Under the pieces are notes generated by a model. It did no database searches. It was not told the origin of the DNA and saw only the letters and a list, made by a program, of their open reading frames with translations. This document shows, piece after piece, positions 6,868 to 64,000 of a DNA stretch of 64,000 nucleotides. The DNA comes from Maribacter sp. (lineage in GTDB: Bacteria; Bacteroidota; Bacteroidia; Flavobacteriales; Flavobacteriaceae). The DNA lies in assembly GCA_020629415.1 (NCBI GenBank), contig JAHDDL010000018.1, positions 1-64,000 on the forward strand, read 5' to 3'. The translations under genes were made by a program, and so were the position numbers. Within the stretch, counting starts at the first letter, position 1, and each line of letters starts with the position of its first letter.

Positions 6868-9297
6868 TCAACGAAGCGTAGCTCCTAAGTTACGCTCGTA
6901 AGCGTTCTGTAATTTTGACATAATTTTCTCAATTTGCTTTTCTGTCAATGTACTTTTATCATCTTGTAAAGTAAAACTTACTGCATAAGACTTTTTACCA
7001 TCCGGTAGGTTTTTGCCTTCATAGACATCAAAAAGGGTCATGTCTTTTAAATACTTGCGTTCTGCACCAAATGCAAGGTCATAAAGCTCTTTGTAAGATG
7101 CATTGTTATCTAGCAAAAGTGCAAAATCTCTTTTAACTTCCGGATGCTTTGGAATTTCTATATAGGAAACAGGTGCGGTGTCAATTTGCTTTAAAACCGC
7201 ATCCCAGTCAAAATCTGCAAAAAGCACATCTTGCTTTATGTCAAAATGCTTTAGAATTGATTTTTTTATCAGCCCAAAAGAAACCAATACTTTTTTCTTG
7301 TGTGTAAAAGATAAGCCTTCAGAAAATATTGTTGCATTGGTTGGTGTACTTTTTAAATTGGATAATCCTAATCTAACAAGCACTGACTCTACTATGGATT
7401 TTAGTTCAAAAAAGCTTGTGGCAACCTGCTTATTTGTCCAACTAACTGGTATTGAGTCTCCGCTAATTAGGATACTCAAGTATTTTGGTTCAATCCTTTT
7501 ATCACCTTTTGTAAAATAGGTCTTACCAAATTCAAATAATTTAAGGTTAGGTTTTCTACGATTGATATTGTAGCTGGCAGCCTCCAAAGCAGAAAACAAA
7601 GACGTTCTTCTAAGTACTGATAAGTCTCCACTTAAAGGATTGATTATCTCTATGGATTTATGCTCCTCGTTCTCCTTGTTTAAAATTGAGGTGTAGTCCG
7701 GGTTCGTTAAGCTGTTGGTCAAAATTTCGTAATACCCCTTTGCTGCCAATGCGTTACCAACAATGTTTTGAACGGTATGGTCTGCTGCAGCTTCGGTTGT
7801 AGCGATAGATGCATTTAATTTCTGACCAAATGCTATATTGTTATAACCGTAAACTCTTAAGATTTCTTCAATAACATCTACCTGTCTCTGAACATCTACA
7901 CGGTAAGAAGGCACTTCAAGACCCATACCTGCCTCGGTTACGTTTTTAACCTTAATATCTAGAGAAGCCAATATTGATTTAATGGTGTCTTGGGGAATTT
8001 CCTGTCCTATAAGCTTATTAATTTTTTCAAAAGCCAAGAACACTTCAAAATTAGGGTGTTTTTTAGGGTAAAGGTCATAGACATCAGAGGTTATTTCCCC
8101 TCCTGCAATTTCTTTGATTAATAGAGCTGCACGTTTTAAGCTGTATTCAACATTTTCAATATCAATACCTCTTTCAAATCTAAATGAAGCATCGGTATTT
8201 AAAGTGTGTCTCTTAGCTGACTTCCTTATGGAAACAGGGTTGAAATACGCACTTTCCAAAAATATAGAAGTGGTTTCCTCGGTTACTCCTGAACCTAATC
8301 CCCCAAATATACCCGCTAGACATAAAGGTTTCTCGGCGTCGCAAATCATTAGGTCATCTTCATGTAAAGTTCTTTCTACTCCGTCAAGAGTAGTGAACTT
8401 TGTGCCTTTCTCTAATGTTTTTACTATTATTTTATTTCCTTTGATTTTTGCTGCATCAAAAGCGTGTAACGGCTGCCCAAGTTCATGTAAAACGTAGTTC
8501 GTAGCATCTACAACATTGTTCTTTGGGGTAAGCCCAATAGCTTTAAGTCTATTCTGTAGCCAAGTAGGTGAAGGCTGTACGATTAAATTGCTTAACGTAA
8601 TGCCGCAATAGCGTGGCGCCAATTCAGGCTTTAAAACATCTATATCAATTTTAAGCGATCTGTCGTTTATATTAAAATGACTTGTTGAAGGCGTAATCAG
8701 TTCTTTGGTAATTTCCTTCTGTTTAAGTCCAGCTTTTAAATCTCTTGCAACACCAAAATGGCTCATGGCATCGGCTCGGTTAGGTGTTAGCCCAATTTCA
8801 AAAATCTCGTCTTCTTTAATATCAAATACTTCAGAACAAGGTGTGCCTACCTTTAGGCTTTTTTCTAGTACCATAATACCTTCGTGACTATTACCAAGAC
8901 CTAATTCGTCTTCTGCGCAAATCATACCAAAGCTTTCCTCTCCTCTAATCTTTCCTTTTTTAATGGTCCATGCTTCACCTTCGGGAGTGTAGAGTGTTGT
9001 CCCGATCGTTGCTACCGGAACTTTTTGGCCAGCAGCTACGTTTTTAGCGCCACATACAATTTGTACCGGTGCATCTAAACCTATATCTACCATGGTAACG
9101 TTCAACTTGTCCGCATTGCTATGTTTTTCGCAACTTAATACATGACCTACTACAATGCCCTTTAATCCGCCTTTAACAGATTCAAATTTTTCTATGCCTT
9201 CAACTTCCAAGCCTAAATCGGTTAAAAGTTCTCCGGTTTTTTGTGATTCCCAATCTATTTGTATGAACTGTTTAAGCCAGTTATATGATATTTTCAT
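6868..9297 (-). CDS. pheT: Phenylalanine--tRNA ligase beta subunit
   Basis: 809 aa, the normal length for bacterial PheT. Domain order fits the family: start MKISYNWLKQFI, tRNA-binding OB domain (about 40-150, with GIVVGHVLSCEKHSNADKLN), B3/B4 editing domain in the middle, B5 domain, catalytic-like core, and C-terminal FDX-ACB anticodon-binding domain (from about 715, with HPEVKRDFALLLDN). It pairs with PheS to charge tRNA-Phe; pheS is not in this window, which is common outside the pheST operon type. It has its own promoter (see 9317-9347). Confidence 0.96.
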   Translation of the reverse strand: MKISYNWLKQFIQIDWESQKTGELLTDLGLEVEGIEKFESVKGGLKGIVVGHVLSCEKHSNADKLNVTMVDIGLDAPVQIVCGAKNVAAGQKVPVATIGTTLYTPEGEAWTIKKGKIRGEESFGMICAEDELGLGNSHEGIMVLEKSLKVGTPCSEVFDIKEDEIFEIGLTPNRADAMSHFGVARDLKAGLKQKEITKELITPSTSHFNINDRSLKIDIDVLKPELAPRYCGITLSNLIVQPSPTWLQNRLKAIGLTPKNNVVDATNYVLHELGQPLHAFDAAKIKGNKIIVKTLEKGTKFTTLDGVERTLHEDDLMICDAEKPLCLAGIFGGLGSGVTEETTSIFLESAYFNPVSIRKSAKRHTLNTDASFRFERGIDIENVEYSLKRAALLIKEIAGGEITSDVYDLYPKKHPNFEVFLAFEKINKLIGQEIPQDTIKSILASLDIKVKNVTEAGMGLEVPSYRVDVQRQVDVIEEILRVYGYNNIAFGQKLNASIATTEAAADHTVQNIVGNALAAKGYYEILTNSLTNPDYTSILNKENEEHKSIEIINPLSGDLSVLRRTSLFSALEAASYNINRRKPNLKLFEFGKTYFTKGDKRIEPKYLSILISGDSIPVSWTNKQVATSFFELKSIVESVLVRLGLSNLKSTPTNATIFSEGLSFTHKKKVLVSFGLIKKSILKHFDIKQDVLFADFDWDAVLKQIDTAPVSYIEIPKHPEVKRDFALLLDNNASYKELYDLAFGAERKYLKDMTLFDVYEGKNLPDGKKSYAVSFTLQDDKSTLTEKQIEKIMSKLQNAYERNLGATLR

Positions 9298-9316
9298 TCA
9301 AAAAATTTATTGGTAG

Positions 9317-9347
9317 CAAAGATAAAACAATGCCCTAATACATTCAA
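9317..9347 (-). promoter_or_regulatory. Promoter of pheT (TTG-N20-TATCTTTG)
   Basis: Read on the minus strand, TTG (9347-9345) is followed by 20 bases and TATCTTTG (9324-9317). Both elements fit the Bacteroidetes sigma consensus TTG/TAnnTTTG. The -7 box is 20 bases upstream of the pheT ATG. Confidence 0.6.
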
Positions 9348-9424
9348 TAAGCTATATAGTCTTTATTTTAATTTTTAATTCTGCCATTTTAATTGTTTAT
9401 TAGAAGTTAATTTAAAAATGAACT

Positions 9425-10648
9425 ATGAGAATTGGTGTTGCAGTACTGGCCGTTTTGATGTTATTTATTGGTTGTAAGGAGGATAAGCAAAACGAGGGCT
9501 TGTCCGAAGGTCTTTGGGTTGTGGAGTTAGAAATAATGGACAACCAGGTTTTGCCATTTAATCTGAAAGTCAATAAAAATGATAACGGCGATTATGCAAT
9601 GCAAATTTTTAATGCGGAAGAAGTTATTAATGTAGATGAGATTGAAATAAAAGGAGACTCCATTGTAATGCGTACACCTGTTTTTGAAGGTTATTTAGCA
9701 GGTACCTTTACCAAGAATAGCATTGAAGGTAAATTCATTAAAGAAAGTTTGGATAGAATAGTACCATTTAAGGCCGTGCAAAGTAAGGCGGAACGTTTTA
9801 CTGCCAAGAACGATAATACCAATAAGAATGTCTCTGGTATTTGGGAAACATATTTTAGCCCTAATGTAGAAGAAGAATATGTGGCTAAAGGTATTTTTCT
9901 ACAGGAGGACAATAGGGTAACGGGTACTTTTAGAACTACTACAGGTGACTACAGGTATTTAGATGGTATACTTGATGGAGATTCATTAAAATTATCGGCT
10001 TTTGACGGTGCCCATGCGTTTCTTTTCAATGCAAAGATTACAGATTCTACTATGAACGGTATTTTTTACTCAGGAAATCATTTTAAGGAACCGTTCGTTG
10101 CAACCAGAAATGACGGGTTTGAATTGCCTGATCCGGATTTATTGACCTTTCTTAATAAAGGTTATGATAAATTGGCGTTTACATTTCCTGATTTGGAGGG
10201 GAAAATGGTTTCTTTAGATGATGAGAAATATAAAGACAAGGTGGTAGTTATACAATTAATGGGAACTTGGTGCCCAAATTGTTTAGACGAAACAAAATTT
10301 TTGGTAGAGTATTTGAAAGAGCATAAAGATATAGAAGTAATTGGTTTGGCGTTCGAATCTGCCAAAACAAAAGAATTGGCTATAAAGGGTATAAAAAGAT
10401 TAAAGGAAAGGGTAGGGGTGACCTATCCAATTTTACTGGCGCAATATGGGACTTATGATAAGCAAAAAGCTCAAGAAAAATTACCGATGCTAAACCATGT
10501 GTTGTCTTACCCTACTACAATATTTATTGATAAAAAAGGGAATGTTAGAAAAATTCATACTGGTTTTAACGGTCCTGCCACCGGAGAGAAATATGAGGAA
10601 TTTAAAACTCATTTCTCTACAATGATTGATGAATTGAGCAATGAATAG
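9425..10648 (+). CDS. Lipoprotein with C-terminal TlpA-type thioredoxin domain
   Basis: 407 aa with lipobox LFIGC (Cys17). Two beta-rich segments follow (about 30-120 and 135-235), each built around a 'GxW...G.F' pattern that looks like an internal duplication. The TlpA-like domain covers about 250-400, with active site GTWCPNC (Cys near 282 and 285) and the cis-Pro region YPTTIFID. This is a periplasmic disulfide reductase or isomerase fold, anchored to a membrane. The protein partner is unknown. Convergent with leuB, one base between stops. Confidence 0.82.
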   Translation: MRIGVAVLAVLMLFIGCKEDKQNEGLSEGLWVVELEIMDNQVLPFNLKVNKNDNGDYAMQIFNAEEVINVDEIEIKGDSIVMRTPVFEGYLAGTFTKNSIEGKFIKESLDRIVPFKAVQSKAERFTAKNDNTNKNVSGIWETYFSPNVEEEYVAKGIFLQEDNRVTGTFRTTTGDYRYLDGILDGDSLKLSAFDGAHAFLFNAKITDSTMNGIFYSGNHFKEPFVATRNDGFELPDPDLLTFLNKGYDKLAFTFPDLEGKMVSLDDEKYKDKVVVIQLMGTWCPNCLDETKFLVEYLKEHKDIEVIGLAFESAKTKELAIKGIKRLKERVGVTYPILLAQYGTYDKQKAQEKLPMLNHVLSYPTTIFIDKKGNVRKIHTGFNGPATGEKYEEFKTHFSTMIDELSNE

Positions 10649-10649
10649 G

Positions 10650-11768
10650 TTATATGATCGTAGATTTTCCCAATCCTATATTTTCATCATTTATATTGAA
10701 GCTTCCATCTAGTTCCATGATGTTATCGGCAATGAAATCTCCAACATAATTGGTGCCGTATTTAGAGCTGCCTAAAATATCTGGAGTAACAATTTTTTTG
10801 GAAAAAGACTTTAATACAGCGGCAACAACGGCATCGGATTCTTCGTTCATTTTAAAATGCTGTAATAACATCGCCATACTTAAAATGGAAGCAACAGGAT
10901 TCGCAATATTTTTCCCTGCCGCATTTGGGTAAGAGCCATGTATGGGTTCAAACATTGCATGTTCAAGTCCTACTGATGCAGAAGGTAAAAGACCGATCGA
11001 GCCAGCTATTACACTACCTTGGTCGGATAGAATATCACCGAACATATTATCGGTCAAAATTACATCGAACTGTGACGGATTTAAAATCATCTGTACAGCT
11101 GCATTATCAATAAATAGGCAATTGAGGGATACATCTGGGTAGCTTTCGGATATGGAACGTACTACACGTCGCCATAAACGAGAAGTTTCTAGCACATTTG
11201 CCTTATCTACGAGAGTTACCTTCTTTTTTCTGGAACGTGCAGATTTGAAGGCTAAATGTGCAATTCTGCTTATTTCAGATTCTGTGTAGGTACATGTGTC
11301 CGTGGCAGAATTTTTTTCTTCATCAATAGACTTGTCCCCATAGTAAATTCCACCGGCAAGTTCTCTAAAAATAACTAAATCTGTATTTTGGACTTGGGTT
11401 TTTGATAATGGTGATTGCTTTACCAATGAAGGAAAAACCTTTACGGGTCTAATATTGGCGAACAGTCCTAATTTCTTACGTAATTTAAGTAGACCTTGTT
11501 CAGGCCAAATTTTTGCTTTGGGGTCGTCATCAAATTCCGGTAAGCCTAATGCACCAAATAACGTTGCATCGGTATTCTTACAAAGTTTTAAGGTCTCTTT
11601 TGGCAATGGGCTGCCGGTCTGTTTGATCGCAGTTGCGCCTATAAGTCCTTTTTTAAAGGTAAAGCTATGGCCAAAGGTCTCTTCTACGGAGCGTAAGCAC
11701 TTAATAGATTGTGCAACGACCTCCGGTCCAATTCCATCTCCTTCTAAAACAGCAATGTCTAAATGCAT
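10650..11768 (-). CDS. leuB: 3-Isopropylmalate dehydrogenase
   Basis: 372 aa, full length for LeuB. It oxidises and decarboxylates (2R,3S)-3-isopropylmalate with NAD+ in leucine synthesis. Diagnostic regions: EGDGIGPEV near the N-terminus, the arginine-bearing LRKKLGLFANIRPVK (substrate binding), RELAGGIYYG, and the metal-binding DNMFGDILSDQ with GSIGLLPSAS. The last segment, EPIHGSYPNAAGKNIANP, is the adenosine-binding loop of the NAD type. Starts 2 nt after leuA stops, so the two are one operon. The C-terminus is a little longer than usual (about 12 residues). Confidence 0.95.
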   Translation of the reverse strand: MHLDIAVLEGDGIGPEVVAQSIKCLRSVEETFGHSFTFKKGLIGATAIKQTGSPLPKETLKLCKNTDATLFGALGLPEFDDDPKAKIWPEQGLLKLRKKLGLFANIRPVKVFPSLVKQSPLSKTQVQNTDLVIFRELAGGIYYGDKSIDEEKNSATDTCTYTESEISRIAHLAFKSARSRKKKVTLVDKANVLETSRLWRRVVRSISESYPDVSLNCLFIDNAAVQMILNPSQFDVILTDNMFGDILSDQGSVIAGSIGLLPSASVGLEHAMFEPIHGSYPNAAGKNIANPVASILSMAMLLQHFKMNEESDAVVAAVLKSFSKKIVTPDILGSSKYGTNYVGDFIADNIMELDGSFNINDENIGLGKSTII

Positions 11769-11770
11769 AA

Positions 11771-12943
11771 TTAGCTAATACTTTGTAAATCTATATTTGA
11801 AGTTTCAATAATTTGATGAATGTCATCATCTTTAATTTCTTTTCTAGTGTCGGCGTATTTCAAGAATTCTTGGTATACATCGTCTAGTTGCGTTTTTGTT
11901 AATTCGTAACCTACTATTTTGGCTCTATAGGCCAAAGCGGCCCTACCACTTCTGGCAGTCAATACAATAGAAGATTCTGTAACGCCAACGTCTGCGGGAT
12001 CAATTATTTCATAAGTTTCTCTATTCTTGATAACACCATCCTGGTGAATGCCAGAGCTATGTGCAAAAGCATTCGCGCCTACAATAGCTTTGTTGGGTTG
12101 TACCATCATACCCATTTTGCGAGAAACCATTAAACTGGTGTCATACAATAATTGGCTGTTTATGGTCGTGTCTAGATTTAGGTTAGGGTGCTGGCGCATG
12201 ATCATGACCACCTCTTCTAAGGAAGTGTTGCCCGCACGTTCGCCAATACCATTAATGGTACATTCAATTTGTCTTGCTCCGTTTATAACACCTGCAATAG
12301 AGTTTGCGGTTGCCAAACCTAGGTCGTTATGGCAATGGCAAGAAAGAATAGCTTTATCTATTCCTTTTACGTTTTCACGTAAGTATTTAATTTTAGCGCC
12401 ATATTCATCTGGTAAGCAATAACCGGTAGTGTCTGGAATGTTAAGAACGGTAGCGCCGGCTTTAATTACGGCCTCACAAACACGTGCCAAAAACTCGTTA
12501 TCCGTACGGCCGGCATCTTCGGCATAAAATTCAACATCTTCAACAAATGTCTTTGCATAGCTGACCGCAGAAACTGCACGTTCTATAATAGCATCTCTGT
12601 TAGAATTGAACTTAAATTTTATATGAGAATCAGATGTACCTATACCTGTATGAATTCTTGGTGTTTTAGCATGTTTTAAAGCTTGGGCCGCAACTTCAAT
12701 GTCATTTTTGACAGCACGCGTCAAACCACATACCGTGGCATTTTTTACGAGCTTGGCTATAGCTTCAACAGATTGAAAGTCACCAGGGCTAGATACGGGA
12801 AAACCAGCTTCAATTATGTTAACCCCCAATACATCTAGGCGTTCTGCAATGACCAGTTTCTGTTCACGGTCTAATTTACAGCCCGGTACTTGCTCCCCGT
12901 CTCTTAATGTAGTGTCAAATATTTGAACGATATCTTTACTCAT
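11771..12943 (-). CDS. leuA: 2-Isopropylmalate synthase, short form without regulatory domain
   Basis: 390 aa. The alpha-isopropylmalate synthase signature is clear: [13 protein letters not shown] at the N-terminus (metal-binding Asp, catalytic Arg), the metal-binding HCHNDLGLA near 205, NGIGERAGN, and [18 protein letters not shown] in the linker subdomain. It condenses acetyl-CoA with 2-oxoisovalerate. Ordinary bacterial LeuA is about 515 aa and ends in an allosteric leucine-binding domain; here the protein stops after the linker helices, so that domain is missing. The short form seems usual in flavobacteria. Homocitrate or citramalate synthase would be the alternative, but the leuB partner argues for IPMS. 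leuC and leuD are not adjacent. Confidence 0.88.
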
Positions 12944-13088
12944 ATTATTTACGTAGTTTTACTCGTCAAACGAATATATAACCTAAAACATAATGCTTAT
13001 AAAAAATGTAAACTTGTTTACAACGTTAAGCTAGTTTTTTAGGTGTATAAAACATTGAATTTCAATTATTTAAACTCATTTTTTTACG

Positions 13089-14633
13089 ATGACAAATGCG
13101 CATAAAGATGCTTTGTTCGTTTTAGTTAAATCACTTTCTAAATCTGAGAAACGTCAATTTAAGCTTTACGTTGGCAGATTAGGGGTGAATACCGATGCCA
13201 AATTTTTGGCATTGTTCAATTTATTGGATAAAATTAAGCAGTATGATGAAAAAATAATTTTACAAAGTGGAATCGTCAAGAAAGCACAGCTATCTAATTT
13301 AAAGGCTCACCTGTATAAGCAGATTTTGGTAAGTTTAAGATTGAATCCGGTCAATCAGAACATAAGGGTTCAAATTCGTGAGCAGTTAGATTTTGCTACT
13401 ATCTTATATCAAAAAGGACTTTACAAGCAGAGTTTAAAAATTTTAGATAAGGTAAAGGGTGTTGCCATTGAGAACGAAGAGAAGAACATAGCGTACGAAA
13501 TAGTAGAGTTAGAAAAAATTATTGAAACTCAGTACATTACTCGTAGTATACCTGACCGCGCAAATGAACTTGCCATACAGGCCAAAGAATTGTCCGGTCA
13601 TAATGTAATGACCAGTAAGCTGTCAAATCTGTCTTTACAGCTTTATGGTATGATGCTCAAAGTTGGTTATGCCCGTAGCGATGAAGATTATCAAAAGGTG
13701 AAAACGTACTTTAACGACCATTTGCCTCTATATAATTTAGAGGATTTGGGTTTTAGGGAAAAATTGTGGCTGTATAAGGCTCATTTATGGTATAGTTTTT
13801 TGACCCAAGATTTTTTATCGTGTTTTAAATATGCAAGTAAATGGGTAGATCTTTTCTACGATAATAAAGACATGATTTATTTAAACCCTGTATTCTTTTT
13901 GAAAGGGAATCATTATTTATTGGAATCACTTTTTTATGTGCAATATAGTTCTCAATTTAAAGAAGTTTTAGAGCGTTTAGAAAATACGATCAAGGAAAAG
14001 GAGTTTCCTGATAACGACAATATCAACTCACTGGTATTCATGTATTTAAATGCGAATAAATTAAACTTGCATTTTCTTGAAGGCACCTTTGAAAAAGGGT
14101 TGTATCTGGTTAAAATTATTGAATACGGTATAAACAAACATCGTGATAGAATAGATGTGCACCATGTAATGGTACTGTACTATAAAATTGCCTGTCTATA
14201 TTTTGGTATTGGAGATAATAAAACTTGTATTCAATATTTAAAAAAGATAATTGAAAATAAAAATTTAAAAATGCGTGAGGACCTTATGTGTTTTGCACGT
14301 GTTTTAAGTTTGGTTGCCCATTATGAAGCTGGTATGGATTATCATTTAGAAGTACAATTAAAAAGTACATATAAGTTTCTTTTAAAAATGGATGATATGC
14401 ATGCCGTACAAAAGGAAATGATCAAGTTTCTTAGGAGTTTGGGGGGTATTTACCCTAATCAGTTAAAGGCAGAATTTCAAAAACTGTACAACGAACTTAA
14501 AAAGTACGAGGATCATCCGTATGAAAAGAGGGCTTTTCTGTATTTGGATATTTTATCGTGGTTAGAGAGTCACTTACAGAACAAACCTGTTTCTCAAATA
14601 ATGAGAGAAAAAGCGTTGGCAAAATCCCGTTAA
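13089..14633 (+). CDS. Conserved Bacteroidetes protein, all-helical TPR-like, function unknown
   Basis: 514 aa, no signal peptide or membrane segment. Nearly all predicted as helix, with pairs of amphipathic helices spaced about 35-40 residues apart, as in a tetratricopeptide-like solenoid. The N-terminus (MTNAHKDALFVLVKSLSKSEKRQFKLYVGR) resembles a conserved Bacteroidetes start of a cytosolic protein of unknown role. It is divergent from leuA and is followed 9 nt later by a DMT transporter gene, so those two probably share a transcript. No catalytic motif seen; a scaffold or protein-binding role is inference. Confidence 0.65.
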   Translation: MTNAHKDALFVLVKSLSKSEKRQFKLYVGRLGVNTDAKFLALFNLLDKIKQYDEKIILQSGIVKKAQLSNLKAHLYKQILVSLRLNPVNQNIRVQIREQLDFATILYQKGLYKQSLKILDKVKGVAIENEEKNIAYEIVELEKIIETQYITRSIPDRANELAIQAKELSGHNVMTSKLSNLSLQLYGMMLKVGYARSDEDYQKVKTYFNDHLPLYNLEDLGFREKLWLYKAHLWYSFLTQDFLSCFKYASKWVDLFYDNKDMIYLNPVFFLKGNHYLLESLFYVQYSSQFKEVLERLENTIKEKEFPDNDNINSLVFMYLNANKLNLHFLEGTFEKGLYLVKIIEYGINKHRDRIDVHHVMVLYYKIACLYFGIGDNKTCIQYLKKIIENKNLKMREDLMCFARVLSLVAHYEAGMDYHLEVQLKSTYKFLLKMDDMHAVQKEMIKFLRSLGGIYPNQLKAEFQKLYNELKKYEDHPYEKRAFLYLDILSWLESHLQNKPVSQIMREKALAKSR

Positions 14634-14642
14634 GTAAAATTC

Positions 14643-15509
14643 ATGCAGAAGAAAAGCAACCATGTAAAACATTTGCTTGAAATTAACCTGGCAATGCTAT
14701 TTGTAGCTACTTCAGGTGCTTTAGGGCGTTATGTTCAGTTACCGGTACCAGTTGCAATTGGTGCTAGGGCGGTTATAGCTTTTTTTGCTTTAGTGCTGTA
14801 TTGTAAATGGAAAGGCTTCAACTTAAAAATCGATAAAAAGGACGCACTTGTAATTTTTTTAAGCGGATTATTGATGGGCGCGCATTGGGTAACCTATTTT
14901 TATTCGTTAAAATTATCTAACGTAGCAATTGGTATGCTTTCCGTTTTCACATATCCTGTAATTACTTCATTTTTAGAGCCAATTCTTCTTAAAACCAAAT
15001 TTCAATTGATGCATTTGCTTCTTGCTTTTTTGGTGCTGACCGGAATGTATTTTCTGAGTCCTACACTAGATTTTGAAAATTCGTATACCATTGCCATTGC
15101 ATTTGGGGTTTTTTCTGCATTGGCATATGCATTAAGAAACATTATATTAAAGCAAAAAGTTTCTAAATATAATGGAACTGTGCTAATGACATATCAAACA
15201 GCAATTGTAGGTGTTATTTTATTTCCTTTTCTATTAACCGTTTCAACAGATGCAATAGTAAATCAATGGGAGGTTTTGGTAGCATTAGCAGTGTTGACCA
15301 CGGCAATTGGCCATACCATGTTTTTAATGACATTTAAACATTTTAATATTACAACAGTTAGCATTTTAAGCAGTGTACAGCCCGTGTATGGTATTTTAAT
15401 TGCAGTTGTTTTTTTGTCTGAAATACCTAAGGGTACAACAATTTTAGGAGGTATACTGATTTTAAGTTCTGTTGTAATAGAAAGTATTCGCTCAAAAAAG
15501 AAGACTTAG
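14643..15509 (+). CDS. DMT superfamily (EamA-type) transporter
   Basis: 288 aa with ten hydrophobic helices arranged as two five-helix halves, each an EamA domain (about 8-138 and 150-282). The N-terminal phrase LFVATSGALGRY and the repeated pattern at the second half (SILSSVQPVYGILIAVVFLSE) are typical. Members export amino acids, metabolites or nucleotide-type compounds; the substrate cannot be read here. It follows the helical protein gene closely on the same strand. Confidence 0.88.
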   Translation: MQKKSNHVKHLLEINLAMLFVATSGALGRYVQLPVPVAIGARAVIAFFALVLYCKWKGFNLKIDKKDALVIFLSGLLMGAHWVTYFYSLKLSNVAIGMLSVFTYPVITSFLEPILLKTKFQLMHLLLAFLVLTGMYFLSPTLDFENSYTIAIAFGVFSALAYALRNIILKQKVSKYNGTVLMTYQTAIVGVILFPFLLTVSTDAIVNQWEVLVALAVLTTAIGHTMFLMTFKHFNITTVSILSSVQPVYGILIAVVFLSEIPKGTTILGGILILSSVVIESIRSKKKT

Positions 15510-15518
15510 AGATATGTT

Positions 15519-16049
15519 TTAATTTTGAGAATTGATGCCAGGTGTACTTGCTCCGAACTGATTAATGATGTTGTCTCCAAATTTGGTAAACTGTTCGTTT
15601 TTTGCCATTTCCCTAACTTTTACCGGATCAAAGTCTCCGTTGAAATATAGAAATGAACCTGTTTGGCTATCGTTGTTATAGATAAGAATTTCTTTAACCA
15701 GGTTCTTTTTCTCTCTGATCGAGACAACGTTACGCTTTAGATTGTCATTTTTTCTAAAAACTTCTATAAAAGAATTGCCGGTAATGCCGTTCATCTGCTG
15801 ATTTAAAAATTGTGTTTTGCTAGAAGTTGCACTCGGAAATTGCATATATCTTAAATCCTTGGCATTGCCGACCATAGCTTTCATTTCAGGCGAAATTTCG
15901 CTGATCATTGAAAGCATAAACTGTGGTACGCGTATAGCGGTTACCTGATTGTCATTTTTATGGGCATCGTAAAAAGAGTCAATAGAATTATAACTGCCGC
16001 ATGAAGTTATACTTACAAATAAAATAAAGGTGAATATTTTCTTTAACAT
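15519..16049 (-). CDS. DUF4252 lipoprotein
   Basis: Start set at ATG 16049, giving lipoprotein signal MLKKIFTFILFVSITSC; the upstream in-frame ATG at 16109 would overlap the RluA gene and precede the signal with 20 unrelated residues. Precursor 176 aa. The mature sequence has the DUF4252 pattern: VTAIRVPQFMLSMI, a helical segment, then DLRYMQF and ILIYNNDSQTGSFLYFNGDFD. DUF4252 proteins are small Bacteroidetes envelope proteins of unknown function. It follows the RluA gene by about 30 nt on the same strand and could be the second gene of that transcript. Confidence 0.8.
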   Translation of the reverse strand: MLKKIFTFILFVSITSCGSYNSIDSFYDAHKNDNQVTAIRVPQFMLSMISEISPEMKAMVGNAKDLRYMQFPSATSSKTQFLNQQMNGITGNSFIEVFRKNDNLKRNVVSIREKKNLVKEILIYNNDSQTGSFLYFNGDFDPVKVREMAKNEQFTKFGDNIINQFGASTPGINSQN

Positions 16050-16080
16050 GGTTATAGTGTTTAAGTTAAAAGTAAGAAAA

Positions 16081-16779
16081 TTAAAGACATGCATTCCAAA
16101 TAGGGTCAATAGGAGGAGGGGCTATAATTTCTAAAGGTTCTTTTTTTACCGGATGCATCAACTTTAATTTTCTAGCATGTAGATGTATGCTTCCATCGGC
16201 ATTGCTTCTGCTGAAACCGTATTTTAAATCTCCTTTTATAGGGCTTCCTATTGCGGTAAGTTGAGAGCGTATTTGATGATGACGACCGGTTTCCAAGTCT
16301 ACTTCAAGAAGAAAATAGCGATCAAGTTTTTTTAATATTCTATAGCTTAAAATAGCTTTTTTACTATCCGGAACCTCTTTAATGTTAGCGTAAGATTTAT
16401 TTTGTTTGTTGTTTCGCCTCAACCAATGAACCAGTCTTTTCTGGGGTTCGGTAGGACTGTCCTTTACAATTGCCCAATATGTTTTTTTGGCATCTTTTTC
16501 CGCGAACATTTTGTTTAGCCTAGGCAATGCCTTAGAAGTTTTTGCAAACACTACAATGCCCGATGTAGGTCTATCTAAACGATGCACTACGCCTAAATAA
16601 ACATTTCCTGGTTTATTGTACTTCTTTTTAAGAAAAGCCTTAACGGTGTCGCTTAAAGGTTTATCCCCGGTTTTATCACCTTGTACAATATCTCCAGGCC
16701 GTTTATTGATTACGATCAAGTGGTTGTCTTCAAACAGAACTTGAAGATTATCTACGGTAGAATGTTGTTTTTTTGACAA
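16081..16779 (-). CDS. RluA-family pseudouridine synthase
   Basis: 232 aa. Motif II with the catalytic aspartate reads HRLDRPTSG (Asp69) and is followed by the usual FAKTSKALPRLN; the C-terminal LETGRHHQIRSQL motif is intact. RluA-type enzymes isomerise uridine in rRNA or tRNA. There is no S4 domain, so it is the short RluA/TruC-like form; the target RNA cannot be deduced. The reading frame opens with TTG at 16779 and no ATG occurs before the conserved VLFEDNHLIVINK, so a non-ATG start is required. GAAATTTG just upstream is one base from the -7 consensus, so the real start may be slightly downstream. Confidence 0.9.
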   Translation of the reverse strand: MSKKQHSTVDNLQVLFEDNHLIVINKRPGDIVQGDKTGDKPLSDTVKAFLKKKYNKPGNVYLGVVHRLDRPTSGIVVFAKTSKALPRLNKMFAEKDAKKTYWAIVKDSPTEPQKRLVHWLRRNNKQNKSYANIKEVPDSKKAILSYRILKKLDRYFLLEVDLETGRHHQIRSQLTAIGSPIKGDLKYGFSRSNADGSIHLHARKLKLMHPVKKEPLEIIAPPPIDPIWNACL

Positions 16780-16856
16780 ATTTCAGACGTATCTCATTAA
16801 CTTTTCAACAGTATAAATTTGCAATATCCTTAAGGTGTTTGGATAGTGGATCTTGT

Positions 16857-17675
16857 TTAATATTGCTCTTCGTCATTAGGGAAATCTTGACTTTTTACGT
16901 CACTGACATAATTTGATATTGCCTTCCCCATTTCCTCGTAAAGGTTCATGTATCTACGTAAAAATCTAGGGTTAAATTCGTGGGTCATACCTAATAGGTC
17001 ATGCACCACTAAAACTTGACCGTCAGCATGTTTTCCTCCGCCAATTCCAATAGTAGGAATGGTCAAACTTTCAGAAACCTTTTTTGTGAGTTGAGCAGGT
17101 ATTTTCTCTAATACCAAACCAAAACATCCTAACTTTTCTAATAATTTTGCATCCTCCATCAGTTTTTCCGCTTCTTCCTCTTCTTTTGCACGAACTGTAT
17201 AGGTTCCAAATTTGTAAATAGACTGTGGCGTTAGGCCTAAATGTCCCATTACCGGTATTCCTGCTGCTAGAATTCTCTTTACGGATTCTTTAATTTCGGC
17301 ACCACCTTCTAATTTTACAGCGTGGGCTCCACTTTCCTTCATAATTCTAATTGCAGAACGTAAAGCTTCTTTTGGATCACTTTGGTAACTACCAAAAGGT
17401 AAATCTACAACTACCAAAGCTCTGTCTATAGCTCTAATGACCGATGATGCATGGTAAATCATTTGGTCTAAGGTAATGGGTAGGGTTGTTTCATGACCGG
17501 CCATTACATTACTGGCAGAATCGCCAACTAAAATAACATCTACCTTGGCATCGTCCACAATTTTGGCCATGGAATAGTCATATGCAGTAAGCATAGAGAT
17601 CTTTTCTCCATTCTTCTTCATATCTACAAGTGATTTCACCGTTACTCTTTTATATTCTTTTTTGGCTACAGACAT
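16857..17675 (-). CDS. panB: 3-Methyl-2-oxobutanoate hydroxymethyltransferase
   Basis: First committed enzyme of pantothenate synthesis: it transfers a hydroxymethyl group from 5,10-methylene-THF to 2-oxoisovalerate. Conserved segments: [39 protein letters not shown] (metal-binding Asp), [15 protein letters not shown], and [10 protein letters not shown], all in order. Length with ATG 17675 is 272 aa, the normal size; an ATG eight codons upstream (17699) is possible but adds a non-conserved MALNQYKN. The enzyme shares its substrate with the leucine pathway of leuAB 4 kb away, but the genes are separate units. Confidence 0.94.
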
Positions 17676-58939: not shown

Positions 58940-58971
58940 TAGATACGAATTTTAGTATTGAGTTAAAATTA

Positions 58972-58997
58972 AAGCCCTGCATTTGCAGGGCTTTTTT
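58972..58997 (+). terminator. Intrinsic terminator after the OmpA-family gene
   Basis: AAGCCCTGC (58972-58980), loop ATTT, then GCAGGGCTT (58985-58993) with a T run to 58997. It lies only 24 bases upstream of the GTG start of the biosynthetic operon. Confidence 0.9.
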
Positions 58998-59020: not shown

Positions 59021-60142
59021 GTGAAAGAGCATGGCATATTAATTATTGGAGGCGGATTGGCAGGTTTGACTGCTGCCATTCATTTGGCTTTGGAAGGCTT
59101 AGACGTTGCCGTTATTGAAATTCAGCAATATCCGCAACATAAAGTATGCGGCGAGTATGTCTCAAAGGAAATTGAGCCCTATTTGAAGGGATTAGGTGTA
59201 GACTTAAAAATTTCTGGTGCCTTGGCTATTTCAAAATTTCAAATAAGTACGCAAGACGGATTTATGGTGCAAACAGAATTACCATTGGGCGGATTCGGGA
59301 TCAGTAGGTATGCATTTGATAATTTATTATTTAAAAGAGCTCAGGAATTAGGTGTCCATTTTTATTTTGAAAAGGTTGTTGAAACAGTTTTTAAAGAAGA
59401 TTCTTTTACTATCAAAACCAAGACCGGATGTTATTCTTCTAAAATGGCCATAGGTGCTTATGGTAAACGTTCCGTTCTTGATAAAAATTTAAATCGGGAT
59501 TTTAGTAAGAATAAACAATCTTGGTTAGCGGTAAAGGCGCATTATAACAATAACGATTTTCCAGAGAATTTGGTTGCGCTACATAATTTTAAAGGAGGTT
59601 ATGGGGGATTGTCAAAAACAGAGACCGGGGCGGTAAATTTCTGTTATTTGGCACATTATGATAGTTTCAAGACGTATAAAGATGTAAATAGTTTTAATAA
59701 GGCGGTAGTTGCTGAAAATCCTTTTTTAAAGAAATTCTTGTCAACTTCAGAGTCTATATTTGAACGGCCCATGACCATTGCCCAAATAGCTTTCGATAAA
59801 AAAGAAACCATTGTCGATCATATGCTTATGTGCGGAGATACGGCAGGTCTTATACATCCACTATGCGGTAATGGAATGGCAATTGCCATTCATAGCGCCA
59901 AAATAGCTTCTGAATTAATTGTACGGTTTTTTAGTGATGCAGATTATTCGAGAAACCTATTAGAACAAGATTATAAGTTGGCTTGGGCAAAAGCTTTTAA
60001 AAAACGCCTATGGTTTGGTAGAAAGTTACAAGGTATTCTAATGAACAAAGCATTGGTTTCGTTAGGAATAAAATCCGTTGGAAGGTCCAGTTCAATATTG
60101 AAATATATAATCTCTAAAACCCACGGGGACTTGATAACATAA
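59021..60142 (+). CDS. FAD-dependent oxidoreductase (geranylgeranyl reductase/monooxygenase-like)
   Basis: 373 aa, starts with GTG 59021; an ATG four bases earlier is out of frame and stops at once. The FAD dinucleotide fold is LIIGGGLAGLTAA (7-19), with the second FAD motif MLMCGDTAGLIHPLCGNGM near 270-288. KVCGEYVSKE (41-50) is the mark of the geranylgeranyl-reductase branch of the family. Possible roles are aromatic hydroxylation or alkene reduction on the product of the type III PKS downstream. The gene overlaps the methyltransferase gene by one base (TAATG). Confidence 0.85.
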   Translation: MKEHGILIIGGGLAGLTAAIHLALEGLDVAVIEIQQYPQHKVCGEYVSKEIEPYLKGLGVDLKISGALAISKFQISTQDGFMVQTELPLGGFGISRYAFDNLLFKRAQELGVHFYFEKVVETVFKEDSFTIKTKTGCYSSKMAIGAYGKRSVLDKNLNRDFSKNKQSWLAVKAHYNNNDFPENLVALHNFKGGYGGLSKTETGAVNFCYLAHYDSFKTYKDVNSFNKAVVAENPFLKKFLSTSESIFERPMTIAQIAFDKKETIVDHMLMCGDTAGLIHPLCGNGMAIAIHSAKIASELIVRFFSDADYSRNLLEQDYKLAWAKAFKKRLWFGRKLQGILMNKALVSLGIKSVGRSSSILKYIISKTHGDLIT

Positions 60143-60849
60143 TGGTAGATTTTACACATAGAAGTAGCGAGGTGGAGATTATGGATACCTTTTCTGGTAA
60201 CATAAGTGAGCTCGAAACTATTCTACAAGATATCAATAGGGTAAATAAGTTGTTGGGTGGTTATAGTATTACTTTAAGTGCTGTATTTGAGATGATTAAC
60301 AAAGGGCATAAAGAATCGTATACGATTTTAGATGTGGGTTGTGCTGAGGGAACCATGTTACGAAAGCTGGCGGATGAAGCAAGAAAGCACAATATCAAGG
60401 TAAAATTGATTGGAGTTGATTTTAACGAACAAGCCTTACGATTGGCACAACAGTATTCATCTAACTATCCAGAAATCAGTTACGTTAATACCGATATTTT
60501 AAAGACCGATTTTTCTAATAGTGATATTGATGTGGTAATGTCTACGTTGACCTTGCATCATTTTACGGATAATGGAATCATAAAATTTGTAAATAGATTT
60601 GTGGAAATAGCAAAATTAGGGGTGGTTATAAATGATTTGGAACGTAGTCCTGTAGCGTATTCTTTGTTTAAGGCATTTAGTTTCTTTTTTATAAAAACAG
60701 ATATTGCCAAAAAGGACGGATTATTATCTATACGTAGGGCATTTAAAGAAGAGGAATTAAAACATTTTGCAAGTAGGGTTACCAATGCATCCCATAAAAT
60801 AAAATGGAAATGGGCATTTAGATATGTGTGGATTTTAAAAAAGAAATAG
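60142..60849 (+). CDS. SAM-dependent class I methyltransferase
   Basis: 235 aa. Motif I is ILDVGCAEGTMLRKLA (62-77), motif II region IGVDFNEQALRLA and the later VVMSTLTLHHF. It transfers a methyl from S-adenosylmethionine; in context an O- or C-methylation of a polyketide ring. Translationally coupled to the FAD enzyme. The palindrome ATCGTATACGAT falls in it (60315-60326, in KESYTILD). Confidence 0.87.
   Translation: MVDFTHRSSEVEIMDTFSGNISELETILQDINRVNKLLGGYSITLSAVFEMINKGHKESYTILDVGCAEGTMLRKLADEARKHNIKVKLIGVDFNEQALRLAQQYSSNYPEISYVNTDILKTDFSNSDIDVVMSTLTLHHFTDNGIIKFVNRFVEIAKLGVVINDLERSPVAYSLFKAFSFFFIKTDIAKKDGLLSIRRAFKEEELKHFASRVTNASHKIKWKWAFRYVWILKKK
60314..60327. repeat. Palindrome AATCGTATACGATT, copy 4 (in methyltransferase gene)
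   Basis: Perfect 14-bp palindrome within the methyltransferase reading frame (encoding ESYTI). Fourth exact copy of the 12-bp core in the window. Confidence 0.85.
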
Positions 60850-60873
60850 GTAGATTGAAGATTAAGAATAGCT

Positions 60874-61929
60874 ATGGGTCATACAAGAATTGTTAATGTT
60901 GTTAAAGAATTGCCACCGTATTCTAGAGATACAAAGGATATTATTCCCCTTGTAGAATATTGGTTGAGTGATCAGGAAGATCGTTTTACCAGAAAGGTGG
61001 TTAAGATTTTTGAAGGTGCTGCCGTAGATAAACGCTATTCTATTATGCCTCCTGAAGATGTGTTCATAACTACATCTTTTGAAGATAAAAACAAGATTTA
61101 CAGTAGAGAAGCTAAACGAATGGGCGCAAATGTCCTAAAAAACGCATTACGGAAAAGTGAATGGGCGGCTTCATCAATAGATTATATCATTACGGTTAGC
61201 TGTACAGGTATTATGATTCCGTCTTTAGATGCCTATTTGATCAATGATGTAGGATTGCGACAAGATGTTGTTAGGCTTCCGGTCACAGAAATGGGTTGCG
61301 CTGCAGGGGTATCGGGTCTTATTTATGCCCATAATTTCTTGAAAGCCAATCCTGGTAAGCGCTTAGCATTAGTCGCGGTAGAAAGTCCTACCGCAACCTT
61401 TCAGCTTCAGGATTTTTCTATGGCAAATATGGTCAGTGCCGCAATTTTTGGAGATGGTGCGGCTTGCGTGCTATTATCATCAGAAGAAGATGCAGTTGGT
61501 CCTAGGATAGTAGGAGAAGAAATGTATCACTTTAAGGATGCTACCGAAATGATGGGTTTCGATTTAACCAACCACGGATTAAAAATGATTCTAGATCCAG
61601 CGGTACCAGAAACTATTTCCGATCATTTTGAGGATATCGTTCATCCATTTCTAAAAAAGTATGAGAGTAATATAAATAAAGTAGATCATTTAATATTTCA
61701 TCCCGGAGGAAAAAAAATAGTGCAGACAGTAGAATCGCTTTTTGGTGCCCTTGGTAAGAATATTGATGATACTAGAGAAGTGTTACGCCTGTATGGTAAT
61801 ATGAGTAGTGCAACTGTTTTATACGTTTTGGAGCGTTTTTTAGAGAAAGACATAGCAGCAGGTGAGCAGGGGTTAATATTGAGTTTTGGTCCCGGTTTCT
61901 CGGCACAACGCGTTTTAATTGAATGGTAG
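60874..61929 (+). CDS. Type III polyketide synthase (chalcone synthase superfamily)
   Basis: 351 aa, typical length. The catalytic triad is present: Cys142 in VTEMGCAAGVSG, His276 in DHLIFHPGGKK and Asn309 in LYGNMSSATV. The VSCTGIMIPSLD segment is also a family mark. The enzyme extends an acyl starter with malonyl-CoA units and folds it to a pyrone, resorcinol, phloroglucinol or naphthalene ring. The dedicated reductase, dehydratase and synthase genes behind it suggest a fatty-acyl starter. It is not a plant-type chalcone synthase. The product is not readable from sequence. Confidence 0.93.
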   Translation: MGHTRIVNVVKELPPYSRDTKDIIPLVEYWLSDQEDRFTRKVVKIFEGAAVDKRYSIMPPEDVFITTSFEDKNKIYSREAKRMGANVLKNALRKSEWAASSIDYIITVSCTGIMIPSLDAYLINDVGLRQDVVRLPVTEMGCAAGVSGLIYAHNFLKANPGKRLALVAVESPTATFQLQDFSMANMVSAAIFGDGAACVLLSSEEDAVGPRIVGEEMYHFKDATEMMGFDLTNHGLKMILDPAVPETISDHFEDIVHPFLKKYESNINKVDHLIFHPGGKKIVQTVESLFGALGKNIDDTREVLRLYGNMSSATVLYVLERFLEKDIAAGEQGLILSFGPGFSAQRVLIEW

Positions 61930-61944
61930 AACTATTAAATTACG

Positions 61945-62730
61945 ATGATGAGAGGTAAGTATTGGGCATTAATATTAGGAGGAAGTAGTGGATTAGGACT
62001 TGCAACGGCAAAGAAATTAGCTCGTCATGGTTATCATGTTCTTATAATGCACCGTGATCGCCGTGCCGCTATGGATGAAATAGAAAAGGATTTTACTGAA
62101 ATTAGAAGCTACGGAAATGACTTTTTATCAATGAACGTAGATGTGCTAAATGCCGATAAACGGGCAGGTATTATTTCTGATATTCAGCAACAACTGCCGC
62201 AAGGGCATCTAATAAAGGTCATGGTTCACAGTGTCGCAAAAGGTACTTTAAAACCAATGTATTCACGTAGTGAAGCATCGTTAAGCGATACTGATTTTAG
62301 AATTACGTTTAATGCGATGGCTTTAAGTCTGTATGATTGGACCAAGGCATTGGTAACTGCAGATTTGTTTGCTGAAGATACCAGAATCGTATCTTTTACA
62401 AGTGAAGGAAATACGAAAGCATTGCCAAATTATAGTGCCGTCTCTGTAGCTAAAGTAGCTTTAGAGGCGCTGACCAGAAGTATTGCCCTAGAATTTGCAC
62501 CAATAGGTATAAAAGCAAATTGTATTCAGGCCGGTATTACCATGACAAAATCTTTATCTATGATTCCCGGTTTTGAAAAGATAAAAGAAAATGCGTTGAA
62601 GAGAAATCCGCAAAATCGGTTAACATTACCTGAAGATGTTGCAAATGCCGTGTATTTATTAACAATGGATGAAGCTAAGTGGATTACCGGTACAGTAATC
62701 AAAGTAGATGGTGGCGAAAGTTTGATTTAA
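61945..62730 (+). CDS. SDR enoyl-ACP reductase-like protein (FabI/FabL type)
   Basis: 261 aa. The nucleotide fold is ALILGGSSGLGLATA (8-22). The active site reads NYSAVSVAKVALEAL, so Tyr163 and Lys170 are spaced Y-x6-K, the FabI/FabL enoyl-reductase pattern rather than Y-x3-K of ketoreductases. The final GTVIKVDGGESLI matches enoyl-reductase ends. It would reduce an enoyl-ACP made by the dehydratase encoded 11 nt behind it. Intact; start MMRG, where either ATG may serve. Confidence 0.85.
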   Translation: MMRGKYWALILGGSSGLGLATAKKLARHGYHVLIMHRDRRAAMDEIEKDFTEIRSYGNDFLSMNVDVLNADKRAGIISDIQQQLPQGHLIKVMVHSVAKGTLKPMYSRSEASLSDTDFRITFNAMALSLYDWTKALVTADLFAEDTRIVSFTSEGNTKALPNYSAVSVAKVALEALTRSIALEFAPIGIKANCIQAGITMTKSLSMIPGFEKIKENALKRNPQNRLTLPEDVANAVYLLTMDEAKWITGTVIKVDGGESLI

Positions 62731-62741
62731 TAGGGAAGAAA

Positions 62742-63191
62742 ATGAAAGAAACATATGATTGGATATTGAATAAACTTCCATATTCGGATCCATTCCTTTT
62801 TGTGCATGAAATTTTGGATATTAATGATACAATGGTGGAAGGCAGTTATAGGTTTTCGCCAAAATTGGATTTTTATCAAGGCCATTTTAAAAACGACCCA
62901 ATTACACCAGGAGTAATTTTAACGGAGTGTTGTGCTCAAATTGGCCTGGTTTGTTTAGGTATTTATCTTTTAGGGCAAAAGACCAAATTAGAAAATTTTA
63001 CCATTGGTATGAGCAGCTCTCAAATGGAGTTTTTGCTTCCGGTATTACCTGGAGAACGAGTTAGGGTGGTTTCAAATTTGATATATTTTAGATTTCAGAA
63101 ATTAAAGTGCGAGGTTAAAATGTACAATGAAGATGATAAACTGGTCTGCAAAGGAATTTTAGCGGGCATGATAGGTGTAGCCAATGAATAG
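62742..63191 (+). CDS. 3-Hydroxyacyl-ACP dehydratase (FabZ/FabA-like hotdog fold)
   Basis: 149 aa from ATG 62742; the frame is open further upstream but that part lies inside the reductase gene. The catalytic His is in YQGHFKNDPITPGVILTE (His48) with the partner Glu62 and CCAQIG after it, as in FabZ. It dehydrates 3-hydroxyacyl-ACP. It overlaps the ketosynthase gene by 8 nt. Its position between reductase and synthase supports a dedicated fatty-acid cycle. Confidence 0.85.
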   Translation: MKETYDWILNKLPYSDPFLFVHEILDINDTMVEGSYRFSPKLDFYQGHFKNDPITPGVILTECCAQIGLVCLGIYLLGQKTKLENFTIGMSSSQMEFLLPVLPGERVRVVSNLIYFRFQKLKCEVKMYNEDDKLVCKGILAGMIGVANE

Positions 63192-64000
63192 ACGTGTAGT
63201 TATTACAGGGTTAGGGGTATGTGCACCAAATGGTGTAGGTTTAACCGATTTCACAAATGCCTTGCTGGAAGGTAAAAGTGGGCTTCGGCATCAACCAATT
63301 TTAGAGCAGTTGGGTTTTGGTTGCCAAGTAGCTGGCGAGCCACTGGTAGCGGATAAAACTATAGATAACTATTTTACGCCACTTGAACGTAGAGGCTTAA
63401 ATGCAACGGGAATTGTATATGGAGTAATTGCAGGTCTGGATGCCTGGAAAGATGCGGGGTTGGATAAGAACAATACGGATGAACCAAGCTGGGATCGGGG
63501 TATCATTTTTGGTACCGGAATTTTAGGTGTGGATAAGTTTAGGGAAGCCATACATTTAATAGATGATGGTAATGTACGTAGGCTTGGCAGTACCTCGGTA
63601 ATACAAACTATGGCGAGTGGTATAAGTGCCTATTTAGGCGGAATACTAGGTTGTGGAAATCAAGTGACCACGAACTCCGCGGCATGTACTACAGGTACCG
63701 AAGGTATTATCATGGCGTACGAAAGAATTCGTCAAGGAAAGGCCGACATAATGTTAACGGGCAGTTGTAGTGATAGTGGTCCGTATGTGTGGGGCGGTTT
63801 TGATGCCATGCGTATTTTACCAAGAGGTTACAATAATAAGCCTACGGAGGCAAGCCGGCCTATGAGTGCCACAGCTGCGGGATTTGTTCCCGGCAGTGGA
63901 GCCGGGGCATTGGTTCTTGAGTCTTTGGAAAGCGCCCAAAAACGAGGTGCAAATATTTATGCAGAAGTATTGGGAGGGGAAATCAATAGTGGTGGGCAGA
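63184..64000 (+). CDS. Beta-ketoacyl-ACP synthase (FabF-like), truncated by window end
   Basis: Starts ATG 63184 inside the dehydratase stop region. The visible 272 residues are a KAS I/II fold: RRVVITGLGVCAPNGVG, the nucleophile Cys168 in TTNSAACTTGTEG, then GSCSDSGPYVWGGFDAM and PMSATAAGFVPGSGAGALVLE. The His pair of the active site lies beyond the window, so only the Cys is confirmed. It condenses acyl-ACP with malonyl-ACP. The shared operon suggests a starter-chain synthase for the type III PKS. Confidence 0.9.
   Translation, partial: MNRRVVITGLGVCAPNGVGLTDFTNALLEGKSGLRHQPILEQLGFGCQVAGEPLVADKTIDNYFTPLERRGLNATGIVYGVIAGLDAWKDAGLDKNNTDEPSWDRGIIFGTGILGVDKFREAIHLIDDGNVRRLGSTSVIQTMASGISAYLGGILGCGNQVTTNSAACTTGTEGIIMAYERIRQGKADIMLTGSCSDSGPYVWGGFDAMRILPRGYNNKPTEASRPMSATAAGFVPGSGAGALVLESLESAQKRGANIYAEVLGGEINSGGQ

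Follow-up and report, generated by a model that had tools for sequence, protein, structure and literature searches.

A type III polyketide synthase operon with its own discrete chain-building genes is conserved in Flavobacteriaceae and predicted to make a phenolic-type lipid

Results

A type III polyketide synthase operon at the window edge

We analyzed a 64,000-nucleotide stretch of Maribacter sp. DNA (assembly GCA_020629415.1), below called the window, which comprises bases 1–64000 of contig JAHDDL010000018.1 in a genome of 3.9 Mb. From position 59021 to the window end, six genes on the forward strand code for a flavin adenine dinucleotide (FAD)-dependent oxidoreductase, a methyltransferase (MT), a type III polyketide synthase (T3PKS), a short-chain dehydrogenase/reductase (SDR), a dehydratase (DH) and a ketosynthase (KS) (Table 1). 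An earlier, sequence-only reading of the window had described these as six co-directional genes with overlaps or short gaps. Open reading frame (ORF) calls, with overlaps or gaps of at most 24 bases, bore this out, as did a Pfam match in line with the respective family for each of the six genes.

The KS gene is complete past the window edge and ends at contig position 64452. It is followed by a gene for an 84-residue acyl carrier protein (ACP; about 64496–64750, outside the window) and then by a convergent TerC-like gene. The sequence-only reading had suggested that an ACP, a ketoreductase or a starter ligase could lie beyond position 64000. Of these, the ACP was found; no ketoreductase or CoA ligase was seen when the ORF lists were inspected by eye as far as the contig end (82538), and the operon ends with the ACP gene. 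Just upstream of the FAD gene we found a hairpin with a T tail, the longest of seven terminator-like sites (4.2 expected by chance), and the operon hence most likely extends from the FAD to the ACP gene. A sigma-70 scan gave 23 promoter-like sites, compared with 20.6 expected, and was not informative.

Table 1. Positions of the operon genes and the upstream hairpin in the window
Feature	Position	Strand	Remarks
Terminator-like hairpin with T tail, between OmpA-like lipoprotein gene and operon	58971..58994	+	10-pair stem, 6 GC pairs, T-rich tail
FAD-dependent oxidoreductase	59021..60142	+	Pfam FAD_binding_3
S-adenosylmethionine-dependent methyltransferase (MT)	60142..60849	+	Pfam Methyltransf_25
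Type III polyketide synthase (T3PKS)	60874..61929	+	Pfam Chal_sti_synt_N and Chal_sti_synt_C
FabL-like SDR, proposed enoyl-ACP reductase	61945..62730	+	Pfam adh_short_C2; Y-x6-K
FabZ/FabA-type dehydratase (DH)	62742..63191	+	Pfam FabA PF07977; alternative in-frame GTG start 62679 possible
FabF-like ketosynthase (KS)	63184..64000, on to contig 64452	+	Pfam ketoacyl-synt PF00109 and PF02801

The seven-gene unit is conserved in Flavobacteriaceae

We compared the operon with two locus sets. The whole-genome set holds 65 loci (L004, L035–L095, L123–L125), i.e., 62 from Flavobacteriaceae and three from outside the family, and the named set holds the best 80 (L175–L254) of at least 547 candidates. 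Both sets overlap, so that their counts are not independent. The order FAD-MT-T3PKS-SDR-DH-KS-ACP on one strand was complete in 51/65 whole-genome loci, where the single genes were present as follows: FAD, MT and T3PKS in all 65, SDR in 55, DH in 61, and KS and ACP in 62 each. In the named set, 66 of the 80 loci had exactly this order, nine had the same order without the SDR and five were cut by a contig end or contained split ORFs (L183, L199, L230 and L237 on short contigs; L252 with FAD and DH genes in two ORFs each); FAD and MT genes lay beside the T3PKS gene in 80/80, as they did in 65/65 of the whole-genome set. Gene order among relatives, which the sequence-only reading had put forward for comparison, is thus conserved. 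Median gaps between neighbors in the seven-gene form were −8 to 26 bases, and some of the 51 complete loci contain an extra ORF inside the block. Carriers include Maribacter, Zobellia, Salegentibacter, Aquimarina and others. The loci L081 and L095 appear to be decayed or misassembled: in each of them the FAD gene is in two ORFs, no DH was found in L081, and the T3PKS gene of L095, which is counted among the complete loci, is also in two ORFs.

The unit was also found in two other families, with seven genes in genome G437 and six in G275 and G328 (loci L123, L124 and L125). These three units nest inside the Flavobacteriaceae tree, and the remaining matching genomes of the two families in our sample had matches of only E 1e-31 to 1e-57. 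Together this suggests transfer of a working unit; the evidence is moderate, as the tree is midpoint-rooted and has one long branch. At 17 more distant Bacteroidota T3PKS loci we found no KS nearby at a first-look limit of E 1e-5. Three of them had both MT and FAD genes and a fourth had an MT gene. Since short ACPs or divergent DHs may escape detection at this limit, only the absence of the KS is firm for these loci.

The chain-building genes are inherited together with the T3PKS

Among 199 sampled Flavobacteriaceae genomes, 71 had a T3PKS match at E 1e-10, of which 63 were close (at least 58% identity) and eight weak (at most 35%). As the T3PKS gene of G066 lies at a contig end, this locus is outside the set, and 62 of the 63 family loci could be read. 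An operon-type KS (E 1e-80 or better) was present in 62/199 genomes, every one of them with the T3PKS. The only genome with the T3PKS and no operon-type KS was G138. Moreover, in G190 and G144 the region after the SDR gene is gone from the FAD-MT-T3PKS-SDR locus, and DH, KS and ACP genes stand together at a second locus.

The phylogeny of the KS agrees with this distribution. The sequence-only reading had named a grouping with the housekeeping fatty-acid set as an outcome that would speak against a dedicated role. We found instead that 18 operon KS rows and 14 FabF rows, the latter from genomes carrying a T3PKS, separated into two clades, each with 100/100 support. The tree contained 16 of the 62 operon KS, two KS from the split loci, the 14 labelled FabF from 14 genomes with a T3PKS, and six others, two of which grouped with FabF; the program flagged long branches. 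Co-occurrence, split loci and the separate KS clade all say that the chain-building genes belong with the T3PKS, and we are highly confident that the seven genes form one functional unit. That the operon KS is a stray housekeeping copy was rejected on the grounds of its separate clade and its co-occurrence with the T3PKS.

The same data bear on a further explanation, in which KS, DH, SDR and ACP merely supplement or alter the general fatty acid pool while the T3PKS uses ordinary acyl-CoA, so that the genes would be co-inherited with no acyl group passed directly from one part to the other. The KS is FabF-like, the SDR is absent from 10/65 loci, which suggests substitution by other enzymes, and G138 keeps a T3PKS with no KS. 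All this would fit a contribution to the pool. However, in 199 genomes the KS never occurs without the T3PKS, and it was retained at a second locus after the operon had split. Also, a gene of the phosphopantetheinyl transferase superfamily often follows directly after the ACP gene (17/64 loci, and found in 21/80; Pfam on one representative). We therefore regard the pool explanation as quite improbable and retain a chain builder dedicated to the T3PKS.

Dehydratase, ketosynthase and carrier protein

The chain-building enzymes have intact catalytic residues. His69 and Glu83 of the DH (numbering of the longer form) were invariant in 61/61 sequences, and Cys168, His310 and His347 of the KS in 62/62. 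The ACP scored 20.6 bits with Pfam PP-binding, just below the cut-off of 20.8, and the serine at its modification site was invariant in 62/62 relatives. FabF proteins usually read GFGGTN at a C-terminal position where 61/62 operon KS have the signature SFGFGDVN, which could serve as a marker of the operon KS type.

The window genome also has a separate FabF-like KS with an adjoining ACP gene. Its sole other FabA/FabZ match sits in a 468-residue gene that we take to be probably an LpxC-FabZ fusion. In addition, two large frames of 1320 and 2470 residues with KS and carrier domains were seen on contig C48 of this genome (about 8900–16900); they probably form a separate cluster resembling nonribosomal peptide synthetase/polyketide synthase (PKS) systems.

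The SDR is a FabL-like reductase

The sequence-only reading had taken the SDR for an enoyl reductase from its Y-x6-K motif. This motif held throughout, as the active site TS[E/D]G-x7-Y-x6-K was present in 126/126 sequences from two partly overlapping locus sets. The best NCBIfam match was FabL (PRK08063) with 160 bits; the equivalog cut-off of 328 was missed, and we hence call the protein FabL-like. FabL also led the profile matches in the PDB, where 3oic and 3oid head the list (3oic, E 4.8e-37; runner-up 9.3e-27). In a structure model with a mean predicted local distance difference test (pLDDT) score of 91.5, the top fold matches were a FabL model and 3oid; FabI and FabG folds came next and lay within some two to three orders of magnitude of FabL. 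We therefore propose that the SDR is a FabL-like enoyl-ACP reductase. Other full-length SDR matches in the window genome had at most 29% identity; 17/18 had Y-x3-K at the likely active site and the 18th had neither form.

T3PKS, methyltransferase and flavoprotein

The T3PKS catalytic triad Cys142, His276 and Asn309 was invariant in 65/65 sequences. By score, the nearest solved structures were Pks11, the THNS-type 1u0m and CylI, and the nearest named relative, among the matches listed, was that of Maribacter huludaoensis with 99%. The best NCBIfam match was DpgA (NF042429) with 184.9 bits, compared with a cut-off of 425 bits.

This match raises the possibility that the head is made first, i.e., that a DpgA-like T3PKS produces a small aromatic acyl-CoA which primes KS, DH and ACP for an aryl-polyene-like or aryl-alkanoyl product. 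It could also account for the SDR-less loci, where KS, DH and ACP are retained and, without an enoyl reductase, could make polyenes. However, the DpgA score is far below its cut-off, and the FabL-like reductase is kept in 55/65 loci. Moreover, clusters for aryl polyenes or flexirubins have more than one KS or a pair of KS and chain-length factor (KS/CLF), whereas the operon has one KS gene, with no second KS and no KS/CLF pair seen in it. We consider a head-first pathway unlikely and continue with a T3PKS that acts on a preformed chain.

The MT scored 138 bits with NCBIfam PRK06202, below the cut-off of 243, and its proposed role is C- or O-methylation of an aromatic or pyrone head. The flavoprotein scored 117 bits with NCBIfam GG-red-SF, below the cut-off of 158.8. 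Its structure model had a mean pLDDT of 87.7. Profile and fold searches returned halogenases, geranylgeranyl-reductase-like proteins and aromatic hydroxylases; in the fold search, all of these and a Cytophaga flavoprotein matched the model at similar levels. We propose that it belongs to the superfamily of geranylgeranyl reductases, monooxygenases and halogenases and acts as a ring hydroxylase (or reductase).

With the halogenases ChlB4, PltA, Bmp2 and Mpy16 among its top profile and fold neighbors, and with marine relatives, the flavoprotein might also halogenate, which would make the product a halogenated phenolic lipid. However, hydroxylases and reductases are found among the neighbors as well. 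The motif of flavin-dependent halogenases, WxWxIP, occurred in 0/145 flavoprotein sequences and GGYxGLS in 124/145. A halogenase identity was rejected on the absence of WxWxIP, and a halogenated product is very unlikely. We chose hydroxylation as the probable reaction by analogy, because the ring of hierridin B bears an additional hydroxyl group (PMC10896814).

Neighboring genes outside the unit

A 143-residue protein with no Pfam match is encoded one to few genes past the KS or ACP gene in 17/64 and 31/80 loci (e.g., L037, 5326–5757); it was not seen adjoining the ACP gene in the window genome. By eye it is hydrophobic. It is perhaps a membrane protein and may be a partner in transport or assembly.

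A gene of the lipid-binding YceI family was present within the retrieved stretch in 21/64 and 29/80 loci. It stands either upstream of the FAD gene (L064, L074, L083 and L086) or downstream (L037 and others), and the single YceI gene of the window genome lies on a different contig. The repeated occurrence in two arrangements is a hint only of an association with the operon. A five-gene T3PKS operon has been described that includes a lipid/isoprenoid-binding protein (PMC10896814), which may be a parallel to the YceI link.

Discussion

Relation to known T3PKS systems

The srsABC genes of Streptomyces griseus combine a T3PKS with a methyltransferase and a flavoprotein, as does the operon described here; unlike it, they are not known to include chain-building genes. 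By gene content, hidABC for hierridin in cyanobacteria and operons of Planctomycetota are also alike in that MT, FAD oxidoreductase and T3PKS genes adjoin on one strand (PMC10896814). In contrast to these three-gene operons and their variations, the order here is FAD-MT-T3PKS, followed by SDR, DH, KS and ACP. When expressed heterologously, the Planctomycetota MT-oxidoreductase-T3PKS operons act as alkylresorcinol synthases (PMC10896814).

The second part of the operon resembles the ars operon of Azotobacter vinelandii, where dedicated fatty-acid machinery likewise adjoins T3PKS genes (PMC6274091, PMC3098273). There, the ACP domain of ArsA hands acyl chains directly to ArsB and ArsC (review PMC6274091). 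The Azotobacter machinery consists of type I fatty acid synthase proteins, whereas KS, DH, SDR and ACP are discrete here. A free-standing ACP is the starting point for CylI of the cylindrocyclophane pathway, a T3PKS that ends a carrier-bound chain as an alkylresorcinol; there, however, type I PKSs carry out the chain elongation (PMC8086630). The operon may thus be viewed, by analogy, as a hid-like triad joined to an ars-like dedicated fatty-acid part that is made of discrete proteins.

T3PKS clusters are not rare in the family; two surveys of Flavobacteriaceae put their share of the predicted gene clusters at 9% and 10.74% (PMC7440613, PMC10734526). In a 'T3pks-arylpolyene' cluster of Aequorivita, the T3PKS shares 69% identity with the one from Zobellia galactanivorans (PMC6139392). 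In the open-access literature searched, we found no description of the seven-gene unit or its product.

Proposed pathway

We propose, with fair confidence, that the product of the operon is a modified phenolic-type lipid, made by its own type II chain builder and the T3PKS/MT/flavoprotein triad. We hold it likely that this product is some phenolic or pyrone lipid with an alkyl chain. The pathway takes its data from the enzyme families, the catalytic residues, the conserved unit and its co-inheritance. In a first step, the dedicated KS, DH and FabL-like enoyl reductase would elongate an acyl chain on the operon ACP, with a ketoreductase presumably borrowed from the housekeeping set; substrate and chain length are assumptions of this model. 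The T3PKS would then accept the acyl group from the operon ACP (or from CoA), add two or three malonyl-CoA and cyclize the product to an alkylresorcinol or alkylpyrone. The predicted third step is methylation of the head by the MT. As a fourth step the flavoprotein would oxidize the head, most likely by hydroxylation, to yield an alkyl-hydroquinone or quinone; this order of tailoring is a suggestion. The product would hence be a methylated and probably oxidized alkylresorcinol or alkylpyrone.

The sequence-only reading had proposed that a T3PKS triad and dedicated type II enzymes are merged in one operon that makes a membrane or secreted phenolic lipid or quinone. The architecture stands, given the ACP, the conserved order, the co-occurrence of the KS with the T3PKS in 62/63 genomes and the split loci. 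Product class, cellular location and the reaction of the flavoprotein are still what we infer.

A number of observations weigh against the pathway. The operon contains no ketoreductase, and our SDR search of the window genome pinpointed neither a housekeeping FabG nor a housekeeping enoyl reductase. The T3PKS of G138 stands without an operon-type KS. Also, the T3PKS is remote from solved and named enzymes, and it can therefore not be read from it whether a resorcinol or a pyrone is formed; a determinant of ring type has been reported for ArsB (Trp281) and ArsC (Gly284) (PMC6274091). Further points concern the SDR, the gene most often absent: the 10/65 loci without it retain KS, DH and ACP, and three loci retain it without DH, KS and ACP. 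To explain its distribution, a quick tree of 63/65 rows (L081 and L095 left out; no bootstrap, midpoint-rooted, one long branch) requires seven events of gain or loss; on this tree, SDR absence is only somewhat clustered. The SDR is hence not strictly tied to chain building.

All seven Arenibacter loci of the named set lack the SDR. Relocation within the SDR-less genomes was rejected, as the SDR was not found elsewhere in any of the 10, where the best match reached 70 bits compared with 346 bits in the SDR-keeping G138. The distribution of the SDR speaks against an essential part in chain building; at the loci without it, either another enoyl reductase substitutes or the tail becomes unsaturated. 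The phenolic-lipid pathway is probably correct; we regard it as a supported prediction, not as proven.

Direct transfer from the ACP to the T3PKS is plausible, at somewhat short of even chances, with precedents in Azotobacter and germicidin synthase (PMC6274091). More tentatively, the operon may encode a free-standing type II synthase, in some lineages accompanied by its own phosphopantetheinyl transferase, that is dedicated to the T3PKS with direct acyl-ACP hand-over and would be a discrete-protein equivalent of the type I system in Azotobacter. The recurrent lack of the enoyl reductase would then shift the tail from saturated to polyunsaturated, and lineages would differ in how unsaturated one conserved phenolic lipid is.

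For the family, the chain-building genes are part of a conserved T3PKS unit. The T3PKS of 63/199 Flavobacteriaceae genomes are of one orthologous type, which, with few exceptions among the 62 loci read, stands in one conserved unit. Should direct transfer of acyl-ACP prove true, the unit would provide a small, separable system in which to study the supply of a type III PKS by a carrier protein.

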